The position numbers were made by a program, and so were the translations under genes. Below the pieces are notes generated by a model. It had not been told where the DNA came from, did no database searches, and was given only the letters and a program-made list of their open reading frames with translations. From positions 1 through 29,365 of IMG/VR virus record IMGVR_UViG_3300015360_000146: a stretch of DNA of 29,365 bases. One strand, given 5' to 3'. This document shows, in pieces, positions 8,766-29,162 of this stretch. Source of the stretch: a virus. Numbering within the stretch: the first letter of the stretch is position 1; every line of letters begins with the position of its first letter.

Positions 8766-11700
8766 ATGGCAGAAGTGATCAGAATTAGCGATAATCCCAC
8801 ATTGGTCCCAACGAAAAACTATCAGTACGCCTCGTGGGAGTTTGATGAATTCAATCCTTGTCAAAGCAGTGTTTTTAATGTATTTGACAAAAATGCAAAC
8901 ATGGCTATTGCTGCGGCCACCAGTGCAGGCAAGACAATTATGTCTGAAATGATCGCAGCCTATGAGATAAGAAAAAATAATGGCAAAGCGATTTATGTAG
9001 GTCCACTTAAAGCCTTAGCAAGTGAGAAAGAGCAGGATTGGACTGATCCAAGTCATCATTTTTCCAATTTGAATATTTCGATTGTAACTGGAGATTTTCG
9101 ATTTACAGCAAAAAGATCAAACGAGGTTAATTGTTCTGATTTAATTGTAATGACTCCTGAAATGTTGGCATCGAAATGCAGGAACGACAGTTCTGATAAG
9201 AGTCAATTTTTAAAAGATGTAAAAGTTGTAATCTTTGATGAATCGCATTTATTGACCGTTCCAAATCGAGGAGACCACATTGAAGTGGCTTTAATGAAAT
9301 TGGTGAAAATCAATCCTGATATTAGAATTGTATTGCTTTCCGCAACAATGCCTAATGTAGATGAAATCTGCCAATGGATAACAAATCTCACTCAAAAAGA
9401 CACTTATTTTTTAGAATCTAATTATCGTCCGTGCCCTTTAAGTATTCACTATGAATCTTACTACGACGGCGATAAATCATATGATGACAAAGAAGATAAC
9501 AAGATTCAATCGGCGGTTTCTATTGTCAATTATTATCCCAATGACAAATTTTTGATTTTTGTTCACACCAAAAGAACCGGCAAGTTAATGGTGAAACAAC
9601 TCGATCAGAATGGCATTGTTGCCGAATTTCATAACGCCAATTTAGCGTTCAAAGAGCGAAAGAATCTGGAAGACAGATTTAAGAACGACGTAAACACACG
9701 GGTGATTGTGGCGACAAGTACATTGGCTTGGGGTTGTTATGCCCACGGGACTAGATTACTGGGTCCGCATGGAAGGCTTGTCAATGTAGAGGATGTTTTT
9801 GAAGGAACAAATCTTCTTTGCCCTGTTGAAAATAAATTTGAAAAAAGAACAGTAGTGTCATGTCGTGATTTTGAAGACAAAAATGGGATTTTAGTCATTT
9901 TGGAATCAGGCGAAGAAATGTTGGTTTCTTCGGATCACGTTTTTTTTGGAACAAATAAAAGAAATATCCCAGATTGGTGCAAGGCAAATATATTGGAAAA
10001 AGGCGATTTTATTGCTACGCCTTCTGATTTAAAATTTAAGACTCCAACAGAGTTTATGTTTGATCCATTTTGGTATTTAATCGGGTTTGGTTTCGGAGAT
10101 GGATCAATTACTGATTGCGGTACGCACGCTGATGGTAGTCAAAAAGCTGTGTTGGATTTTTGTTTAGGAACGAGAGATCGGCACGCAGATCAAATTGTCG
10201 CATGGTTCAATCAATTGTTTGGTACAAATTATGAAATGCACGATGACATTAATTCTATACCTCATTTAATTACAAAAAAAAGAGATATAGTCGATAAGTT
10301 TTTAGATCACTTGCCTCTTGGTAGAAAAATTGGATTAGACGATGTGCCTAGTAAAATTTATGGAAAAGCAAAAATAGTTGCCAATTTTTTACGTGGTTGG
10401 TTTGATGCAGATGGTGGGATGGAAGATCACTCTAATGATAATCAATCTGTTGGGTTGTCGTGCATCAGCAAAAGAGCATTGGAAAGTGCTAGAGCTTTGT
10501 TATTGGGATTTGGTATCCACTCTTCTTTTGGAAAGAAGAAAGTAAAAGATGTTATAATAAATGGCAGATTTCAAAAATCTACAAGAAAATATTCATATAG
10601 AATTAGAATTTTTGGCAACACGAATATCAGCAAATTTAGCAAAACGATAGGATTCGGCCATGTTGAAAAACAACAAAAACTCAATAAATATTTGAGTTCA
10701 ATTTCTTCAAACAAACTTCAAAAAGATTTGATTCCCGCAAGATCGTTGATTAATGAACATTTAAATTTAAATAATTTGACTAAGTTGGACTTTAGAAGAA
10801 TTTGTAATTCCGATTTATGGAATTGCGTTAACAAATCTGATTGTAATCGTTTTACGTTGCAAAAATTAATCAATAACACTTCTAAAAGAAGCGGCTTGAA
10901 TGATCTTGTTGAAAAACCAATTTTTTGGAGCCGTATCAAAAGTATAAAAAAGAAAATACATGGAACTTTCAGAGAAATTGAAATTGATGATCCTTTTGCT
11001 TATGTTGGAAACGGAGCTATTTCGCATAACTGCAATCTTCCTGCTCGCCGTGTAATTGTTACTGGAATTCATCGTGGTTTGCAATTAGTCGAAAATTATG
11101 ATATTTGGCAAATGGTTGGTCGTGCTGGTCGTCCAAAGTACGATCCTCGTGGCGATGCGTATATTTTAGTGCCTGAGAGTAATAAAAATGAACATATTGG
11201 TAGATTGAAAAAGCAATCTCCGATCCGCTCAACGATGTTGGAATATGTTGGAACAGATGCAAATCCACATTACAAAACTTTGGCTTTTCATGTTGTAAGC
11301 GAAATTCATCATGGAAGCATAAAAACAAAGGAAGGGTTTCATCAATGGTTTCGTAAGAGCTTGGCACATCATCAGGACCAAAATTTCAATGATGCGGTCA
11401 TTGACCGCACAATTAAAATGTTGGAACAATGCAGAGCGATTGTTGTTGAAGATGGCGAGTACAAGTGTACTGCCGTTGGAAAAGTTGCTTCGATGTTCTA
11501 TTACAGTCCTTTTGATGTTTCTGATCTTAGACGAAATTTCAAACAAGTCTTTGATCAAAAACTTGAAGAGAATGATTACGCTTTAGCAATGGCAATGGGA
11601 AATGTAGACACTAATAAGTGGGCTATTGCAAATCGGTACGAAAAAGAACAGATGGCTACTTTTCAAGGAAAAGTAGAAAGAATGTTTGGTGAATCGACAT

Positions 11701-12116
11701 TTCTTCCGGGAGCAATTAAATACGGATTCGTTTACTTCAACATGTTGAAGGGCAAGAAAAATGATGTATTTGCTGCTCTTCAAGGAGCAATGTTGGTCGA
11801 TCTGGAACGAACGATGCAGGTCATCAATGCCCTCGATAATATGAGCTGTAAGTGGGAAAAACAAAATTGGTTCAAGACTTTTAAGATGCGTCTTCAATAT
11901 GGAGTTGAAGCCGATCTAGTTGAATTGGTCCAGATTCCAAATGTTGGACACGTTAGAGCAAACAGACTCAAAGACAAGAAGATTAAAAGTCTTGGCGACT
12001 TCTTAAACTATGATGTTGGCACAATTGCCAAGATTATGAAATGTAGCACTAAGCTGGCTGAAGAAGCACTGGAAGGTGCTCGTTTGATAGAATTTAAAGG
12101 GTCGATTAATGATTAA
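8766..12116 (+). CDS. Hel308/Ski2-like superfamily 2 DNA helicase containing an intein
   Basis: The reading frame is 1116 codons, of which 684 form the mature helicase. Motifs in order: Q-like FNPCQ (29-33), Walker A AATSAGKT (50-57), DESH box (158-161), SAT (192-194), motif V TSTLAWG (317-323, split by the intein), then NLPARR and motif VI QMVGRAGRPKYD. Late regions look like the winged-helix and ratchet parts of Hel308, ending in helix-hairpin-helix-like LVQIPNVGHVRANRL. It would unwind forks or recombination intermediates 3' to 5' using ATP. It is cotranscribed with the DnaQ-type nuclease and near recA and SSB, fitting replication restart. The last bases overlap the next gene by 8, suggesting coupling. 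Confidence 0.9.
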   Translation: MAEVIRISDNPTLVPTKNYQYASWEFDEFNPCQSSVFNVFDKNANMAIAAATSAGKTIMSEMIAAYEIRKNNGKAIYVGPLKALASEKEQDWTDPSHHFSNLNISIVTGDFRFTAKRSNEVNCSDLIVMTPEMLASKCRNDSSDKSQFLKDVKVVIFDESHLLTVPNRGDHIEVALMKLVKINPDIRIVLLSATMPNVDEICQWITNLTQKDTYFLESNYRPCPLSIHYESYYDGDKSYDDKEDNKIQSAVSIVNYYPNDKFLIFVHTKRTGKLMVKQLDQNGIVAEFHNANLAFKERKNLEDRFKNDVNTRVIVATSTLAWGCYAHGTRLLGPHGRLVNVEDVFEGTNLLCPVENKFEKRTVVSCRDFEDKNGILVILESGEEMLVSSDHVFFGTNKRNIPDWCKANILEKGDFIATPSDLKFKTPTEFMFDPFWYLIGFGFGDGSITDCGTHADGSQKAVLDFCLGTRDRHADQIVAWFNQLFGTNYEMHDDINSIPHLITKKRDIVDKFLDHLPLGRKIGLDDVPSKIYGKAKIVANFLRGWFDADGGMEDHSNDNQSVGLSCISKRALESARALLLGFGIHSSFGKKKVKDVIINGRFQKSTRKYSYRIRIFGNTNISKFSKTIGFGHVEKQQKLNKYLSSISSNKLQKDLIPARSLINEHLNLNNLTKLDFRRICNSDLWNCVNKSDCNRFTLQKLINNTSKRSGLNDLVEKPIFWSRIKSIKKKIHGTFREIEIDDPFAYVGNGAISHNCNLPARRVIVTGIHRGLQLVENYDIWQMVGRAGRPKYDPRGDAYILVPESNKNEHIGRLKKQSPIRSTMLEYVGTDANPHYKTLAFHVVSEIHHGSIKTKEGFHQWFRKSLAHHQDQNFNDAVIDRTIKMLEQCRAIVVEDGEYKCTAVGKVASMFYYSPFDVSDLRRNFKQVFDQKLEENDYALAMAMGNVDTNKWAIANRYEKEQMATFQGKVERMFGESTFLPGAIKYGFVYFNMLKGKKNDVFAALQGAMLVDLERTMQVINALDNMSCKWEKQNWFKTFKMRLQYGVEADLVELVQIPNVGHVRANRLKDKKIKSLGDFLNYDVGTIAKIMKCSTKLAEEALEGARLIEFKGSIND
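9735..11030 (+). mobile_element. Intein with LAGLIDADG homing endonuclease in helicase motif V
   Basis: The insert has 432 residues. It begins with Cys (CYAHGTRLL), has a block-B-like SSDHVF (65-70), two LAGLIDADG-type motifs (YLIGFGFGDG at 114-123 and FLRGWFDADG at 218-227), and ends FAYVGNGAISHN followed by Cys+1. All residues needed for protein splicing are present: Cys1, the penultimate His, the terminal Asn and a Cys nucleophile. Removing it restores LAWG-CNLPARR, matching the usual LAWGVNLPA of Ski2-like helicases. The two DOD motifs keep acidic residues, so homing activity is plausible. Confidence 0.93.
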
Positions 12117-16480: not shown

Positions 16481-18160
16481 ATGCAAACGATTGACAATCT
16501 TTACAGCATAGATTACCTCTATCCAAAAATATTAATTCTTGAATTAATCGAAAAAACTAAGGGTTGTTCCGTGGTCTGGGATAAGATCCGTTCAGCTACT
16601 TATAAAACTCATTGGCAAGTTGAAGATAGATATTACGACATATCTCTTACTTACCTAAAAAATACGTTTAAGATAGATTTTAAAAGAAATGGGAGATCTG
16701 TTTACAGTTTAGATTCAAATGCAGTTGCAGAAATTAATGATTTGTATCAAATCGTAGAACTTTACCTTGAACAAGATGATTCTTTCTTGCCTGCCTTACA
16801 AAGTCAACTTAGTTGCAGGCGTTATAATAGAGTCAAAGCAAAAGGCGGAGTTGTAGCCGGAGGAATATCTGCGCATGTTGTAAAGGCTATTATGACTGCT
16901 ACAGGCGGCGTTAAAGTTGGAGGATCTTCAAGTGTGCTTAAATTTTTGCCGGGACATGGTGGCGTTGTTGTTACAGGCTCTTCTATAGTTCGCATAATTT
17001 ACACAATTAACATCATGGCTAGTGGTGGTGCTGTAATCGGCAAATCTTCTGTTGTTAATTCAAATTTTAATAATCATTTCACAGGTGGCGTTAAAGCAGG
17101 CGGAAGATCTGTCAGATCAACCTCTGCATTCGCATTTGGCGGAATTATAGTAGGTGGATCTGCAATTTCTCTAATTCGCATTATTGGAACTGGAGGAGTA
17201 AAATGTGGAGGAACTTCGATACATCAATTGTTTGTTAGATCACATGGTGGAGCAAAATGTGGAGGAACAGCTAAAGTCACGCCTTACATAGAGAAAGGTT
17301 ATGGAGGCGTTGTTGCACGTGGAGTATCTGGTGTTCCTATAGATGTTTACGTTGCTTCAATACATCCAACTGGATTAGGAGTAAAGAAAGTTCTTGTTAA
17401 TGGATCTTCAGTTTCATTGAGTTCCTCAAATGTATCTGCATTTGCCGTAGATGCGGTTAATAGAAAAATGTTTTATGCGAATTATTCTGGCGGAAAAACT
17501 GACATTTATAGAACGGACATAAATGGATTGAATCTTGTAAAAATACAAGAAAGCAATCTTATAGTTACAAATATGGCGGTTAGCGGAACAAAACTTTATT
17601 TTGCCAATAATTTTGTTTTTTTCCAAGCGACTAACAATGCGGCTGTTTTGAGTTGTGATTATGATGGATCAAATCTTCAAGTTCTTTTTCTTCGTGGGCA
17701 AAAAAACATAATCGATATGGGTTATCAAAATGGTTATTTATTTTATACTTATTCAGAGACTAATATCGATTATTTTTACAATGGACAATTAAGTAATATT
17801 ATTAATTCCAATAACACGTTTACTTCAGTGACCGGAGCAATAACGGCTGTAAAAAATAAAGTTTTACCGCATAAAATAGATTTAGTGTTTAATTCTTATA
17901 ACACAATATACAATCGTATTTTCATTAATCGGCTGACCTGTCCTGTCAACGAATCCTTAATTGGGCATGTGAGTGTTAATTATGACATACAAATCTTGTC
18001 AAATAGCTTTTCAAGTGACGGAGGAAATGAAATTTATTATTCAAATTTAGTGAACTCTTACCCAAATGCTATAAATAAATTTAATTTGGATGATCAGTCA
18101 ATTACAACAATTTCAAGTGAAGATCATTATCTTGTATCAACTGGAGTTAGTCATTTATGA
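16481..18160 (+). CDS. Fibre-like protein: N-terminal module, GGV repeats and YWTD-type propeller
   Basis: The product has 559 residues from ATG 16481 (preceded by ACAGGT and a TAAATA box; an upstream GTG in frame is possible). Residues 1-115 form a module with ELIEKTKGCSVVWD and DLYQIVELYLEQ, also present in two nearby genes. Residues 122-287 hold nine repeats of about 18-22 residues built around GGVxxGGxS, likely stacked beta-strands. From about 300 to the end, blade-like repeats (AFAVDAVNRKMFYANYSG, TDIYRTDINGLNLVKI) resemble YWTD/LDLR-type beta-propellers. This order suits a virion fibre or adhesin with an attachment domain, shaft and receptor-binding tip. No signal peptide. Virion location is inference. 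Confidence 0.68.
   Translation: MQTIDNLYSIDYLYPKILILELIEKTKGCSVVWDKIRSATYKTHWQVEDRYYDISLTYLKNTFKIDFKRNGRSVYSLDSNAVAEINDLYQIVELYLEQDDSFLPALQSQLSCRRYNRVKAKGGVVAGGISAHVVKAIMTATGGVKVGGSSSVLKFLPGHGGVVVTGSSIVRIIYTINIMASGGAVIGKSSVVNSNFNNHFTGGVKAGGRSVRSTSAFAFGGIIVGGSAISLIRIIGTGGVKCGGTSIHQLFVRSHGGAKCGGTAKVTPYIEKGYGGVVARGVSGVPIDVYVASIHPTGLGVKKVLVNGSSVSLSSSNVSAFAVDAVNRKMFYANYSGGKTDIYRTDINGLNLVKIQESNLIVTNMAVSGTKLYFANNFVFFQATNNAAVLSCDYDGSNLQVLFLRGQKNIIDMGYQNGYLFYTYSETNIDYFYNGQLSNIINSNNTFTSVTGAITAVKNKVLPHKIDLVFNSYNTIYNRIFINRLTCPVNESLIGHVSVNYDIQILSNSFSSDGGNEIYYSNLVNSYPNAINKFNLDDQSITTISSEDHYLVSTGVSHL
16844..17337 (+). repeat. Nine protein-level GGVxxGG repeats
   Basis: The coding sequence repeats at intervals of about 54-66 bases, each unit starting with glycine-glycine codons (GGVVAGG, GGVKVGG, GGVVVTG, GGAVIGK, GGVKAGG, GGIIVGG, GGVKCGG, GGAKCGG, GGVVARG). 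DNA copies have diverged, so this is an old repeat, not a recent expansion. Confidence 0.85.
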
Positions 18161-18555
18161 CAGATAATCTACTTCAGCTCATTGGAATGCAGCCAGACAT
18201 TATTCTTGCTGAACTGATAGATGGTACTAAGACATGTGCCATTATTTGGGATCAGATAACGCACACCACTTACCATGCTAATTTCATGTGGAGAAATAAT
18301 TACTATGACATTTACATAACTTTGATCCAAAATGGATATGTGCTTGACGTTTTGAAAAACAAGAGAAAGATTTTTAATCTAAACTCATTTTTGAATAATC
18401 AAATTCAAGTTTTGTATTATGTGATCACAGATACGATGAAAGATCAGGTTTTGAAAGAAATCATAAATGATCTTAACAAGTTACAATCTTGCAAAAATAT
18501 AAAAATGGTTGAAGCCAGAGGCGGAGTTGTTTGTAGTGGGTCTGCTTACAGTTAG
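18157..18555 (+). CDS. Truncated copy of the fibre N-terminal module
   Basis: The product has 132 residues. It matches the N-terminus of the upstream gene: ELIDGTKTCAIIWDQI versus ELIEKTKGCSVVWDKI, YYDIYIT versus YYDISLT, and a final RGGVVCSGS that begins a GGV repeat. It then stops at TAG. The ATG overlaps the upstream stop. Sequence just behind it reads, in another frame, as the last blade of a propeller, so this appears to be a tandem duplicate that lost its middle. The shortened protein may still work as a free module. Confidence 0.72.
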   Translation: MTDNLLQLIGMQPDIILAELIDGTKTCAIIWDQITHTTYHANFMWRNNYYDIYITLIQNGYVLDVLKNKRKIFNLNSFLNNQIQVLYYVITDTMKDQVLKEIINDLNKLQSCKNIKMVEARGGVVCSGSAYS

Positions 18556-18701
18556 ATAAAATATCGGTAGAAACAAATATTGTTCAATCGGACATACCAT
18601 TTGTAGATTTGCATGATGTTCCTTACGATTTAAGCTATGATATGACTACGCAAAAATTGTTTGTTAGTTCTGGGAAAAATGTTTATTTTTATCAAATGTA
18701 A
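18537..18701 (+). pseudogene. Out-of-frame C-terminal remnant of a duplicated fibre/propeller gene
   Basis: In the frame shifted from the preceding gene, codons are open from 18537 to TAA 18699-18701 and read DKISVETNIVQSDIPFVDLH and then LSYDMTTQKLFVSSGKNVYFYQM. The last segment looks like a beta-propeller blade (LxxDxxxxKLFVSSxxNVYFY). There is no start codon or ribosome site. With the truncated module directly upstream this looks like the far end of a deleted paralogue. Confidence 0.6.
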
Positions 18702-18714
18702 TGAATGGATTTAA

Positions 18715-18966
18715 ATGGAAAAAACAGATATTTTGAAAGCGGCATCTAATGCCTATTATGTTAACGCCAGCATGATAAAATTTTTGTTGGTAGAAAATCT
18801 GGCCCTTAAAACACTTCTTCATCAAAAAGGGTTGATCACTCCGGAAGAATACAAGAGCTATCAAGAACAGGCTGGAGCGATTTTAGCAATGAAAGAAGAA
18901 GATCAAATGCTTAAGTTCTTTCAAAGTGTCATGGATAAACAAAATACCGAAGACTCTATTCGTTGA
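18715..18966 (+). CDS. Hypothetical small helical protein
   Basis: The product has 83 residues. It is all-helical by composition (MIKFLLVENLALKTLLHQKG, LITPEEYKSYQEQAGAILAMKEED), with an internal PEEY helix cap. There is only a weak GGA before ATG 18715. The stop overlaps the end of the convergent nuclease gene by 11 bases. It could be a small chaperone or assembly factor for the fibre upstream, as phages often place these next to fibre genes, but nothing in the sequence proves that. Confidence 0.62.
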   Translation: MEKTDILKAASNAYYVNASMIKFLLVENLALKTLLHQKGLITPEEYKSYQEQAGAILAMKEEDQMLKFFQSVMDKQNTEDSIR

Positions 18967-19630
18967 TGGTTTGTTGTCTCTTTATTTTTGCTCGAAGCTT
19001 ACCGAGGCCAACTTCTGTTTGAACGCTGAATTGCCATCCATGATTGAGAGCATGATCATTCATAGCTCCCCATTTTGCTCTATTTTGTTCATACGCTGTT
19101 TGATTGGCTGGTTTGATTTCCCAAATTTCTGTACTTCCATCAATGAAATTTACTCTGATGTCAGGGATGTAATCGTGCCATGCTCCTTGGTAGTAATATG
19201 GCACTTTGAATGGTTCAGCAAAAAAGACAGATACATCACGATCAGATTCTAATAGTTCATAGAACTCACATTCCATTCCAGACCTATAAGGGATGTCGCA
19301 TCCGCTTTTTTTTGAAGAGAATGATCCAGTTCTGAATGCTACTTTTTTGGTCGTCTTTTTCTTTGCTCCGCCAGATGTGAAGTCTCTCCAAATTGCAACA
19401 CGAGTTTGAATGCCTTTTGGCATGATTCTTTTTGGATGTTTTGCTTTATAGTGCATGGTAAGATCACGCACAGGGGCATCACAATCTGGGCATTTAAGAA
19501 ATTCTCTTCCTTGTTCGTGATTTTCAACGATGTGTTGTTTGTATGCGGCAAAATCATCATAGTTGCGACCACACACGAAGCATTGCCATTTTCTGACGTT
19601 TGGTTTACCTTTTTCAAAAAGTTCTGACAT
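18956..19630 (-). CDS. TnsA-like PD-(D/E)xK endonuclease with N-terminal zinc fingers
   Basis: The product has 224 residues. Residues 15-65 hold two zinc-finger-like units: WQCFVCGRNYDDFAAYKQH (C2H2 type) and LKCPDCDAPVRDLTMHYKAKH. Then, from about 115, the nuclease core: GMECEFYELL (early Glu), HDYIPDIRVNF (Asp) and EIWEIKPANQT (E-x-K), with a QNRAKW helix, as in TnsA and phage nucleases of that fold. It likely cuts DNA; roles in phages include head completion, DNA maturation or homing. The ATG follows AAGGAAAT. The Zn-finger plus TnsA-fold pairing and absence of transposition partners argue against a Tn7-type transposase. Confidence 0.8.
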   Translation of the reverse strand: MSELFEKGKPNVRKWQCFVCGRNYDDFAAYKQHIVENHEQGREFLKCPDCDAPVRDLTMHYKAKHPKRIMPKGIQTRVAIWRDFTSGGAKKKTTKKVAFRTGSFSSKKSGCDIPYRSGMECEFYELLESDRDVSVFFAEPFKVPYYYQGAWHDYIPDIRVNFIDGSTEIWEIKPANQTAYEQNRAKWGAMNDHALNHGWQFSVQTEVGLGKLRAKIKRQQTINE

Positions 19631-19637
19631 AATTTCC

Positions 19638-20024
19638 TTAGCTGCGACAAGTTTCTATGTTTTGAATAAACTGTATTGTTTCTTTCAGCTTGGCGTCCAA
19701 TTGCAGAACAATCAATTCGACGATTTCGTAAAGTTCTTGAGTCAAGCTGCTGCGTCCAGTTCTTGGCAATGGACCTTCCTCAATCGAAATGTATGAAACA
19801 GCATCTTTCTTAATGTCAAGCGTCCATTTTGATGCTGTATTTCCGATTCGAGTTTTGGTGACGTAGAAATCCCAATCGATATTTGTGTTAGAGTCTGTTT
19901 CCAAAGAGTGGAATTGAAAGCCACCGACGTGAGTCCAAACTACTCCGCATGACTTTGTTTTTTCAATGAGTTCACGGACTAGAGCTTCAAAATACAAATC
20001 TTGTAATTCAAGTAATGATGGCAT
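19638..20024 (-). CDS. Stand-alone copy of the ELIEKTK module
   Basis: The product has 128 residues. I start at ATG 20024 (MPSLLELQDLYF), which follows GAGGA at good spacing, not at an ATG 13 codons earlier that overlaps the preceding gene. It carries ELIEKTKSCGVVWTHV, WDFYVTKT, WTLDIKKD and LYEIVELIVLQLDAKL, the same landmarks as the N-terminus of the fibre-like gene and its truncated copy. Three copies in 4 kb suggest a family with a shared structural or adapter job. Its own function is unknown. Confidence 0.75.
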   Translation of the reverse strand: MPSLLELQDLYFEALVRELIEKTKSCGVVWTHVGGFQFHSLETDSNTNIDWDFYVTKTRIGNTASKWTLDIKKDAVSYISIEEGPLPRTGRSSLTQELYEIVELIVLQLDAKLKETIQFIQNIETCRS

Positions 20025-20025
20025 T

Positions 20026-20469
20026 TTATTCCTCGTCGGCTCTTGTGAAATTTGGAGCATCATCTGGATCTTTTTTCAAAAATCGAGACAAATCAATAAG
20101 ATTGAATGAATTCTTTTGTTTAGGGAAAGCTTTTTCTCCTAGTTTTTCAACTTCTTTATGAAGTAGCTGTGATACTTTGTCTTTGTCTAAAATATTAATT
20201 TTCTTTAAATCTTTGCTGCTGAAGATGTTTTGTGAAGGCTCTCCACTTACTGACCTTTTTAAGTTATGAGCAGAAAAATTGGCTTCATCTTTCCATCCAG
20301 AAGGAAGATCTTCATCAGGATGTTTCATTTTTGCGAATACAACTCGACTATCTTCTCCAGCACCAAAAATATCGTTTTCTTTCTTAAAAAAGAACACAAA
20401 AGGTGCTATTAGTTCGTTTACACGACTATCGATCTTATTTTCTAAAATAATCCAGTTTTTGAATCTCAT
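20026..20469 (-). CDS. Hypothetical protein with capsid-targeting-like N-terminus
   Basis: The product has 147 residues from ATG 20469: MRFKNWIILENKID, then mostly charged helices (DLKKINILDKDKVSQLLHKEVEKLGEK) and an acidic end. The frame is open further upstream, but those codons lie under the divergent gene. The start has no ribosome site. The MxFKxW(I) opening resembles the targeting peptide of T4 internal head proteins and is shared by four other genes in this window. No enzyme motif is seen. Confidence 0.6.
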   Translation of the reverse strand: MRFKNWIILENKIDSRVNELIAPFVFFFKKENDIFGAGEDSRVVFAKMKHPDEDLPSGWKDEANFSAHNLKRSVSGEPSQNIFSSKDLKKINILDKDKVSQLLHKEVEKLGEKAFPKQKNSFNLIDLSRFLKKDPDDAPNFTRADEE

Positions 20470-24513: not shown

Positions 24514-24550
24514 GTTTTTTGCACTCTCATAGAATAATATGGGAGGCAAA

Positions 24551-25912
24551 ATGACTTTGTTAAATGAGTTTTTAAAGAGAAACAGGGAACGTAGACTTAA
24601 GATTCATTGTGTAGGCGATGCAATGATAGACGAGTATTTTGAAGTTAAAGTAAATAGAATTAGTCCTGAATTTCCTATGCCAATTATGGCGTCATCTAAC
24701 AATTGGGCTGTTCGTCGCCCCGGAGGTGCAGCGAATGTGGCTTATCAATTTAAAAATTTCAATGTAGAATCTTTGCTAATTTGTTGGTGTGATGAAATTG
24801 CAAAAAGTGTTTTTGTTGATCATAAAATTCAATGGGTACACGCATTGTGTTCTCAATGTTGTTCTCTTCCGATTAAAAGAAGGTTTTTAGATGGTGGAGT
24901 TCAAGTAGTCAGACATGATATAGAACTGCCGTTATGTGGTTTAGACGAACGCATAATTGATTTTGCTACTCTTGAAATAAGAACTTGTATTGAAAAAACA
25001 TTTAGGCCAGATGTGGCAATATTGTCTGACTATAATAAAGGTTTTTTCTCAAGTGAAAATCATCGTGTTATTGATTTTTACAGAGATGTAAAAACTATTG
25101 TCGATCCTAAGATGGGTCCACTTTCTAAATGGAAGGGATGCACAATCTTCAAACCAAATGCCAATGAAGCTATGAATCTGACAGGGAGGACACAATGGAA
25201 AGAACAAGCTAAGCATTTGCAAGATGAATTGGAGTGCGAAGCTGTTGTGATAACATCTGGTGGCAACCATGTGTCTGGAATTTGGTATGATGATTTTTTC
25301 ACTTTTAAACCAGACAGATCTGTGGTTGCAGAAAGTGTTGTGGGTGCGGGAGATTGCTTTGCTGCGTTCTTTGCTATGGCTGTTGGTCATGGATTTTCTA
25401 TTCCAGAGGCTACAGAAATTGCTTGGAATGCTGGAGCAAATTATGTTAAAAACAAAAGAAATAGACCTATAGTTCCAGCGGAACTACCATTGAATGGTAT
25501 TGTAAATCCGTCTGATTTAATTAATCGTGATTTCAAACTTGTTTTTACAAATGGATGCTTTGATCTTTTGCATGAAGGACATTTAAAGACATTGGAGTTT
25601 GCTAAAAGCAAGGGAGATAAGCTTGTTGTGGCTTTAAATTCTGACTCAAGTATTAAGAGGCTGAAAGGAGAGAATCGACCAATTAAGCCGCTAGACCAAC
25701 GTATGGCAGTAATGAGTGCTTTAAAGATGGTTGATTTTGTTGTATCTTTTGAAGAAGACACGCCGCTGAACTTAATGCAACTAATAAAACCAGATGTTTT
25801 AGTGAAAGGGTCAGATTATCAAGAATGTGAAATTGTTGGAGGAAACATTGTTCCAGAAGTGTTCCGCTGCCCTGTTATTAAAGGCTTAAGCACTACGAAT
25901 TTCTTGTCATGA
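24551..25912 (+). CDS. hldE: HldE-like bifunctional heptose kinase/adenylyltransferase
   Basis: The product has 453 residues from ATG 24551, after GGGAGG (an ATG at 24539 lies before that site). The N-terminal PfkB-type kinase has CVGDAMIDEYF, RRPGGAANVAYQF and VVGAGDCFAAFFA (near 266, catalytic Asp). The C-terminal nucleotidyltransferase has FTNGCFDLLHEGHL (near 333, the HxGH motif) and VLVKGSDY. Together they convert heptose 7-phosphate to ADP-heptose via the 1-phosphate, the sugar donor for inner LPS. The phage may supply heptose for its own glycans or rewire host LPS. The middle phosphatase (GmhB) step is not seen here. Length and both active sites look intact. Confidence 0.9.
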   Translation: MTLLNEFLKRNRERRLKIHCVGDAMIDEYFEVKVNRISPEFPMPIMASSNNWAVRRPGGAANVAYQFKNFNVESLLICWCDEIAKSVFVDHKIQWVHALCSQCCSLPIKRRFLDGGVQVVRHDIELPLCGLDERIIDFATLEIRTCIEKTFRPDVAILSDYNKGFFSSENHRVIDFYRDVKTIVDPKMGPLSKWKGCTIFKPNANEAMNLTGRTQWKEQAKHLQDELECEAVVITSGGNHVSGIWYDDFFTFKPDRSVVAESVVGAGDCFAAFFAMAVGHGFSIPEATEIAWNAGANYVKNKRNRPIVPAELPLNGIVNPSDLINRDFKLVFTNGCFDLLHEGHLKTLEFAKSKGDKLVVALNSDSSIKRLKGENRPIKPLDQRMAVMSALKMVDFVVSFEEDTPLNLMQLIKPDVLVKGSDYQECEIVGGNIVPEVFRCPVIKGLSTTNFLS

Positions 25913-26991: not shown

Positions 26992-27020
26992 TTGTGTTGT
27001 TTTTATTATTAAGATATACT
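26992..27020 (+). promoter_or_regulatory. Promoter for prkA
   Basis: TTGTGT (26992-26997), 17 bp, TATACT (27015-27020). The leader of about 48 bases holds a small hairpin (27034-27048) and ends in AAAAAGGG before ATG 27075. Confidence 0.55.
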
Positions 27021-27074
27021 TTTGATGTTATACGTGGGTTCGACTCACTTCCTTCTAACAAAAAAGGGTTTTTT

Positions 27075-29162
27075 ATGGAAAATAACACAGTCTTAAAGAA
27101 GTTTGCAGAACTGTATGATCGTAAAGAGTTCCTTGCGTTGAACGAGGAAATGTCTTTTGAACAGTATCTTGAAAAGGTTCAGTCGAACCCAAAGCTGGCT
27201 AGAAATTCATTCCAGTATGTTTATGATATGATCATTGCGAAGGGGACTAGCACCTTCGAAAGATATCGAAAGACATATACTCGGTATCATTTTTTCAACG
27301 ATAATGAGATTCCTATCTTCGGACTTGAAGAAACTCTTCAGGATCTCGTGGATTTCATTCATGGTGCGGCTGGTAACTATGGAACAGAGCGTAGAGTTCT
27401 ATTGCTTCACGGTCCTGTAGGTTCTTCTAAATCCACCATTTGTCGTAGGCTTAAGAGAGGTCTTGAATCTTATTCTCGCACAGATGCTGGTTCATGGTAT
27501 ACCTTTAAGTGGGTTAATCTTCCAACTGAAGCTGATGAAGCCGGACCTGCTGTTTTCACAGAGGCAACAGATGTTTCGCCTTTGAATGAAAACCCATTGA
27601 AGCTTATGCCTCGCAATATGAGAGATGAGTTCTTGCGTGACATTAATGCTTATCATGTTGAAATGTCCACAGAGGACGAACGTGAAAGCATTTACAGGTT
27701 GATTTGCGAAGGGGATCTTAATCCACGATGCAAGCTTTTCATGAAGATGTTGCTTGAAAGATACGAAGGCGATTGGCTTAAAGTGGTTCAGAACCACATT
27801 GTGGTAGTTCGTCGAGTTCACTCTGAAATTGATCGATGCGGAATTGGCACATTCCAGCCAAAGGATGAAAAAAATCAAGATAGCACAGAATTGACAGGAG
27901 ACATCAACTTCCGTCATATTGGCAACTATGGATCAGACTCTGATCCAAGAGCCTTTAACTTTGATGGAGAGTTTCAAGTTGCAAATCGTGGGGTTTGTGA
28001 ATTTATTGAAATGTTGAAGCTGGCTAATGAGTTTCTTTACGATTTGCTTGGCGTTGCACAAGAACATCAGATCAAGCCAAAGAAATTCTCTCAGATTGTT
28101 GTTGACGAATTGATTATTGCTCATACCAATAATCCTGAATATGAAAAGCTGAAGAACAATCAGTTCATGGAAGCTCTTCGTGACAGAACCGTTAAAATTG
28201 ACGTTCCGTATCTAACACGTTGGTCAGATGAGATCAAGGTTTTGGAACAAGATTACGGTCCCGGAAAAGTCAAACAACACATCATGCCTCACACTTTGGA
28301 AATCACAGCTTTGTTTGCTGTATTGACCAGATTGCAGGAAGATCCAGACAGCAAGTTAGATCTTCGTGATAAGGCAAAGTTGTATGACGGCAGAAGTCTT
28401 CCCGGATGGACAGAAGACTCTGTTAAAGAACTTCGTGATAGATATGTAGATGAAGGTCTGACAAGTGGTGTGTCTGCACGATATACTCAGAGCGGACTCT
28501 CAAATTGCCTTGCTCGACATAAGAAGTATGTAAATGTATTTCATGTAATGAGCGAGTTAAAGGAAGGTCTTGGTGCATCATCTTTGATTACCAAGGTTGA
28601 AGACAAGAAGAAGTATGAATACTGTGCTGAGTTGGCAATCAAAGAACTGGACGAAATTCTAAAGAATGAAGTTCAGCGTGCTCTTGTTGCTGACGAGAAA
28701 GCTATGGAACGTCTTTGTAATAAGTACATTGACAACGTGATCTCATATGTTAACAAAGAACGTATGATTCATCCGATCACTCATCAGCCGATGGAGCCAG
28801 ATGAAAGACTTATGCGAAGTATTGAAGAGAAGGCTGATATTCCAGAACAAGGATGCGATGACTTCCGAAGATCTTTGGCAGCATTCATGGGGACTCAAAG
28901 CCGCCGTGGCAAGGAATTCAAATGGGATTCAAACGAAGAGCTTAAGAGAGCTATTGAATCTAAAGTTTTTGAAGACATCAAGGACACAATTAAGTTGTCT
29001 TCATTGACTAAAGAAGCAGCCGATCTTGATCCAGATCTTCAAGAAAAGATAGACGCTATCAAGACTCGTTTGATTAAGCAGTATGGCTACAATCATCAAT
29101 CTGCTTCAGATGTACTGGAATACGTCAGTTCAATTTTCGCCCGTGGCGATATCTCTAAGTAG
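27075..29162 (+). CDS. prkA: PrkA-type serine protein kinase
   Basis: The product has 695 residues, near the bacterial PrkA length. The N-terminal AAA-like part has the P-loop LLLHGPVGSSKSTI (109-122) and the conserved start STFERYRKTYTRYHFFND; the C-terminal half carries PrkA-type ITALFAVLTRLQE and the end EYVSSIFARGD. The chosen ATG follows AAAAAGGG; an upstream frame of 27 more codons overlaps the promoter. PrkA phosphorylates serine/threonine in proteins and in bacteria is linked to stress, nutrient limitation and SpoVR-type partners; no SpoVR is present here. In a phage it may reprogram a starved host. Family call is good; kinase target unknown. Confidence 0.87.
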   Translation: MENNTVLKKFAELYDRKEFLALNEEMSFEQYLEKVQSNPKLARNSFQYVYDMIIAKGTSTFERYRKTYTRYHFFNDNEIPIFGLEETLQDLVDFIHGAAGNYGTERRVLLLHGPVGSSKSTICRRLKRGLESYSRTDAGSWYTFKWVNLPTEADEAGPAVFTEATDVSPLNENPLKLMPRNMRDEFLRDINAYHVEMSTEDERESIYRLICEGDLNPRCKLFMKMLLERYEGDWLKVVQNHIVVVRRVHSEIDRCGIGTFQPKDEKNQDSTELTGDINFRHIGNYGSDSDPRAFNFDGEFQVANRGVCEFIEMLKLANEFLYDLLGVAQEHQIKPKKFSQIVVDELIIAHTNNPEYEKLKNNQFMEALRDRTVKIDVPYLTRWSDEIKVLEQDYGPGKVKQHIMPHTLEITALFAVLTRLQEDPDSKLDLRDKAKLYDGRSLPGWTEDSVKELRDRYVDEGLTSGVSARYTQSGLSNCLARHKKYVNVFHVMSELKEGLGASSLITKVEDKKKYEYCAELAIKELDEILKNEVQRALVADEKAMERLCNKYIDNVISYVNKERMIHPITHQPMEPDERLMRSIEEKADIPEQGCDDFRRSLAAFMGTQSRRGKEFKWDSNEELKRAIESKVFEDIKDTIKLSSLTKEAADLDPDLQEKIDAIKTRLIKQYGYNHQSASDVLEYVSSIFARGDISK

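Follow-up and report, generated by a model that had tools for sequence, protein, structure and literature searches.

The window, the whole 29,365-base virus record that was analyzed, carries T4-type genes for gp32, UvsX/RecA and a gp4-like nuclease and also encodes dihydrofolate reductase and thymidylate synthase. The features under study are collected in Table 1. Gene A, on the plus strand with its ATG at 16481 and its stop at 18160, encodes a fiber-like protein of 559 amino acids in which residues 1 to ~118 form an N-terminal module, termed the cap. The start of gene B overlaps the stop codon of A (ATGA), and a third copy of the module, C, is a stand-alone gene on the opposite strand placed in one tight operon with p147 and the gp4-like gene, the spacing being almost nil. 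The neighbors of A and B are metabolic genes (FkbM, cupin and nucleotide metabolism), and recognized tail genes do not adjoin them.

Table 1. Features of the A/B locus and the p147-C-gp4 operon (positions in the window)
Feature	Position	Strand	Basis
A cap, N-terminal module of the fiber-like protein	16481..16840	+	Homology to B and C; alpha-beta5-alpha
A stalk, GGVxxGG-type repeats	16841..17332	+	Motif scan
A payload, beta-propeller-like domain	17333..18160	+	Weak profile match of the L006 ortholog
B, cap and one-repeat stub (RGGVVCSGSAYS)	18157..18555	+	132 aa; homology to A and C
Possible relic of the lost payload of B, other frame (..SYDMTTQKLFVSSGKNVYFYQM)	18537..18701	+	Open 54-codon frame
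C, stand-alone module copy (MPSLLEL...)	20024-19638	-	128 aa; homology to A and B
T4 gp4-like head-completion nuclease (zinc finger and TnsA-like), downstream of C	18956..19630	-	Profile matches
p147, 147-codon gene directly upstream of C	20026..20469	-	Gene order across loci

Several other genes of the window and its relatives are of separate interest. A DEAD-box helicase of the Holliday-junction branch-migration type (phrog_6819, window 8766-12116) is split by an intein that contains a LAGLIDADG endonuclease, and its orthologs in L006 and G006 are intein-free proteins of 684 amino acids. Window positions 26994-29162 encode a phage-borne PrkA-type serine kinase with an AAA domain (PF08298, PF06798), and positions 24539-25912 encode a PfkB-type kinase fused to a cytidylyltransferase, like the bifunctional enzyme of ADP-heptose synthesis, with similar proteins present in L003 and L004. 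A gene identified by eye as a class II-like fructose-1,6-bisphosphatase lies just 5' of A in L003 (12919-13902) and L005 (9309-10328) and is not at that site in the window or L006.

A domain of ~115 residues is common to the N terminus of A, to B and to C. The Smith-Waterman scores are 202 for A/B, 106 for A/C and 88 for B/C compared with shuffle maxima of 65, 62 and 56 (5000 shuffles per pair), and profile searches retrieve all three with E values of about 1e-38 or better. Chance similarity is thereby ruled out, and sequence comparison leaves no doubt that the three modules are homologous, as the first-pass annotation had proposed. That annotation had read the motif ELI(E/D)xTKxCxVVW as shared; the three copies agree on the wider form ELI[ED]xTKxCx[VI][VI]W, as B has AIIW. 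The C-terminal helix motif LYEIVEL...QLD is evident in A and C, whereas B has only a weak version of it (LYYVITDTMK).

No convincing profile match to the cap is found in Pfam, PHROGs or NCBIfam, the best isolated family matches, to phrog_21049 (7e-4) and PF19240 (3e-3), each coming from a single copy of the module. PDB sequences likewise give no convincing match to the module, profile searches of solved structures are without meaningful matches, and neither the two scans covering 84,980 genomes nor a tblastn search of 50,697 phage records finds a bacterial or cultured-phage homolog. A resemblance of the motif to small alpha-beta-alpha proteins of bacteria and phages is borne out by no library and is not used. 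The family, described at the outset as one that could not be named, gains no name from the three profile libraries, from the sequences of the PDB or from the fold comparisons; the module thus appears to be a previously unnamed domain outside every named family searched.

The AlphaFold2 model of C, calculated with 17 aligned relatives, has a mean pLDDT of 79.8 and is composed of a helix, five strands and a long helix (H4-24, E30-34, E37-43, E50-60, E64-73, E77-83 and H94-121). In the model of the full A protein, with A as the query, the cap is predicted as H5-27, E33-37, E40-47, E50-59, E62-69, E72-78 and H84-97 with a pLDDT of about 82-93 over residues 11-90, and the stalk and propeller are of low model confidence. 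The A cap and C, modeled separately, are thus both predicted to be alpha-beta5-alpha, an agreement that is not fully independent because the two alignments have rows in common. A Foldseek search of C returns nothing significant among viral models (best 0.011) or in the PDB, where the best match (E 0.035) is the AMPK alpha subunit. The full A model has two matches with values below 0.001, but their TM-scores are 0.11-0.16 and they were set aside. The KA1-like domains, of which the AMPK alpha C-terminal region is one, share with the module a small sheet with flanking helices and give weak Foldseek matches; however, the sequences are dissimilar and the best TM-score is about 0.3, compared with the 0.5 or above set for a KA1-like fold, and no membership is claimed.

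Outside a single branch of the T4-type jumbo phages, represented by 13 related IMG/VR contigs, the module was not found, and module scans of the viral collection give matches in a handful of contigs only. A search of whole records with a 17-row profile finds one to three modules in each of 10 records of the C-bearing branch and none in 11 records without C (95-595 kb), these absences being soft because most searched records are fragments. The lineage is T4-type, since its member G006 (458 kb) encodes gp23 and a contractile sheath. The A, B and C caps fall into three groups (support 73/90, 94/98 and 88/95) that arose before these phages diverged, in a cap tree that is unrooted and has most inner branches weakly supported.

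Caps begin at least four different architectures, with the module at the N terminus and the distal parts differing. In the window A is formed by the cap, the repeats and the putative propeller and B by the cap and a stub, whereas in L003 A has the cap and three GGV repeats and B the cap, one repeat and the propeller, and in L005 A is the cap only and B the cap and the propeller. In all three phages with both genes fully readable, one of the two is therefore loaded and the other bare or short; in L006 A is loaded and B reaches the contig end. The propeller-bearing A protein of L006 has 492 amino acids. B had been taken for a truncated gene, and its orthologs in L003 and L005, of 410 and 409 amino acids with a propeller, bear this out. 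The module was also sought at the N termini of other fibers, and in G006, where C is encoded as well, caps head two further fiber-like proteins of 308 and 775 amino acids. The GGVxxGG-type repeats number at least seven in A of the window and five in A of L006, the difference being in-frame.

The A payload of L006 weakly matches PF16472 (DUF5050) with an E value of 1.3e-5, its 25.0 bits falling slightly short of the 27-bit cut-off, and the B payload of L005 matches Ldl_recept_b with 21.3 bits (cut-off 21). The window's own A has no match to beta-propeller repeat profiles of the YWTD/LDLR-B type, and its fold is low-confidence. A-type and B-type propellers have about 30% identity over about 80-110 residues, with scores of 68-88 and shuffle maxima of 70-81. 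The proposal that the module may let fibers be swapped is upheld in a limited form, in that old orthologous A and B caps bear different payloads among phages and the payload evolves far faster; movement of one tip from cap to cap is not shown, because the two propeller types align only over these short stretches. The out-of-frame remnant 3' of B was considered as a propeller relic and rejected, its similarity to known payloads not being significant.

The comparison of the window with L006 separates the base of A from its tip. The dN/dS ratio is 0.15 for the A cap (bootstrap 0.08-0.24) and 1.17 for the A propeller (0.85-1.61), with 0.14 for the payload-free B cap (0.05-0.30) and 0.06-0.07 for neighboring genes. 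Substitutions in the A propeller are as frequent at codon positions 1 and 2 as at position 3 and are located between identical blocks, which argues against simple decay. The strong contrast between cap and propeller rests on this single close pair; in the more distant pair L003/L005 it is weaker (0.37 for the B propeller compared with 0.20 for the cap). The caps are under purifying selection, and the pattern is read as a conserved base with a tip that is probably under diversifying pressure. That the module is more conserved than the distal part, the property looked for in an anchor module, holds for both pairs, more weakly for L003/L005.

Loci were also collected through the gp4-like gene (47 loci), which matches PF08722 (E 1.4e-9), the head closure family phrog_218 (E 1e-16) and gp4 in phages. 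Its partner p147, weakly matching the tail assembly chaperone family phrog_344, is its neighbor in 44 of 49 loci, usually immediately upstream. C is placed between the two in 10 of the 49 loci, all from one branch (the window, L003, L004, L005, L025-L029 and L031), and is doubled in tandem in L025 and L029. Most of the wider clade, including LR756511 (595 kb), keeps p147 and gp4 without C, which is therefore not a universal virion part. Between the window and L003 the identity of C (85.9%) is close to that of gp4 (84.4%) and p147 (85.0%), and in the comparison with L005 conservation is lower for C than for gp4 (73 versus 87%). On gene order and conservation, the stand-alone C gene is a stable feature of its branch, inserted in an otherwise conserved p147-gp4 pair. 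As in the T4 head-completion region (gene 4), a gp4-like TnsA-fold nuclease is present, here with C immediately upstream; unlike in T4, p147 and C are without an assigned T4 counterpart. Other, unrelated inserts are seen by eye in the p147-gp4 gap, namely a transposase-like one in L045 (8909-9799), an HNH-like one in L067 (9222-9917) and a 412-amino acid frame in L063 (8743-9981), so the gap may be an insertion hot spot.

In a single lineage of T4-type jumbo phages the module is probably (we estimate roughly 60%) a virion-attachment, or anchor, domain of receptor-binding fibers; we infer that the proteins are present in the virion and dock through the cap, and their oligomerization and the role of C are likewise inferences. 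A and B would be adjoining, translationally coupled anchors, either of which could carry a stalk of Gly-Gly repeats and a beta-propeller tip contacting the host surface. C would be the payload-free form produced alongside the head-completion gene, and would most likely be the virion-side partner that docks A and B by like-with-like contact, or a minimal fiber base. A tentative and rather unlikely extension is a homotypic socket and plug, with C as the socket on the neck or a vertex, A, B and further caps plugging in via the same fold and unloaded caps selected as spare bases that could be refilled with new tips.

A design with exchangeable tips is already known, and the anchor part looks new. 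The RBP anchors of T7/K1F gp17 and of KP32/KP34-type Klebsiella phages (PMC6872550) are similar in having a conserved N-terminal module and differing C-terminal parts. Two-RBP systems with one truncated member, as in KpV767 (843 and 69 aa) and 2044-307w (347 and 556 aa) (PMC6872550), resemble the loaded A and bare B of the window. In noticeable differences, those phages are podophages and not T4-type jumbo phages, their anchors have no sequence match to the module, and the module, unlike those anchors, has a free-standing paralog in the gp4 operon and no recognized T4gp10-like branching domain, Pfam and PHROGs giving no match to gp10 domain 2/3 in A or its relatives.

The N-terminal placement, the small alpha-beta fold and the separately made free copy would also suit an oligomerization or folding domain that trimerizes the fiber without virion contact, with C as a chaperone-like partner in fiber assembly, and the weak match of p147 to a tail assembly chaperone is in keeping with this. 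That reading is quite unlikely, as C lies in the head-completion operon away from the fiber genes and T4-type fiber chaperones are not known to be homologous to the fiber N terminus. The same operon lends itself to another course of events, in which C has a function of its own as a head or neck protein, for instance helping gp4, and a duplicate of C later gave rise to the caps as fiber bases. The tandem C of L025 and L029 illustrates how such copies could originate, and C is the more constrained copy, but p147-gp4 pairs occur without C in LR756511 and others, and a tree that cannot be rooted does not establish C as the ancestral form. This course of events is quite unlikely.

The metabolic surroundings of A and B would fit intracellular or lysis-released propeller proteins that are not virion fibers, the module then being a generic protein-binding domain. 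This is very unlikely given the alternation of fast-evolving stretches with conserved blocks, the varying number of stalk repeats and the tie to the head-completion operon.

Little is known of the ways in which jumbo phages attach and exchange host-binding proteins, mostly because their fibers are too divergent to recognize. As an anchor, the module would provide a sequence tag by which the variable tips of this lineage may be found in metagenomic jumbo phages, and the free copy beside gp4 hints at the virion site in which to look for it.
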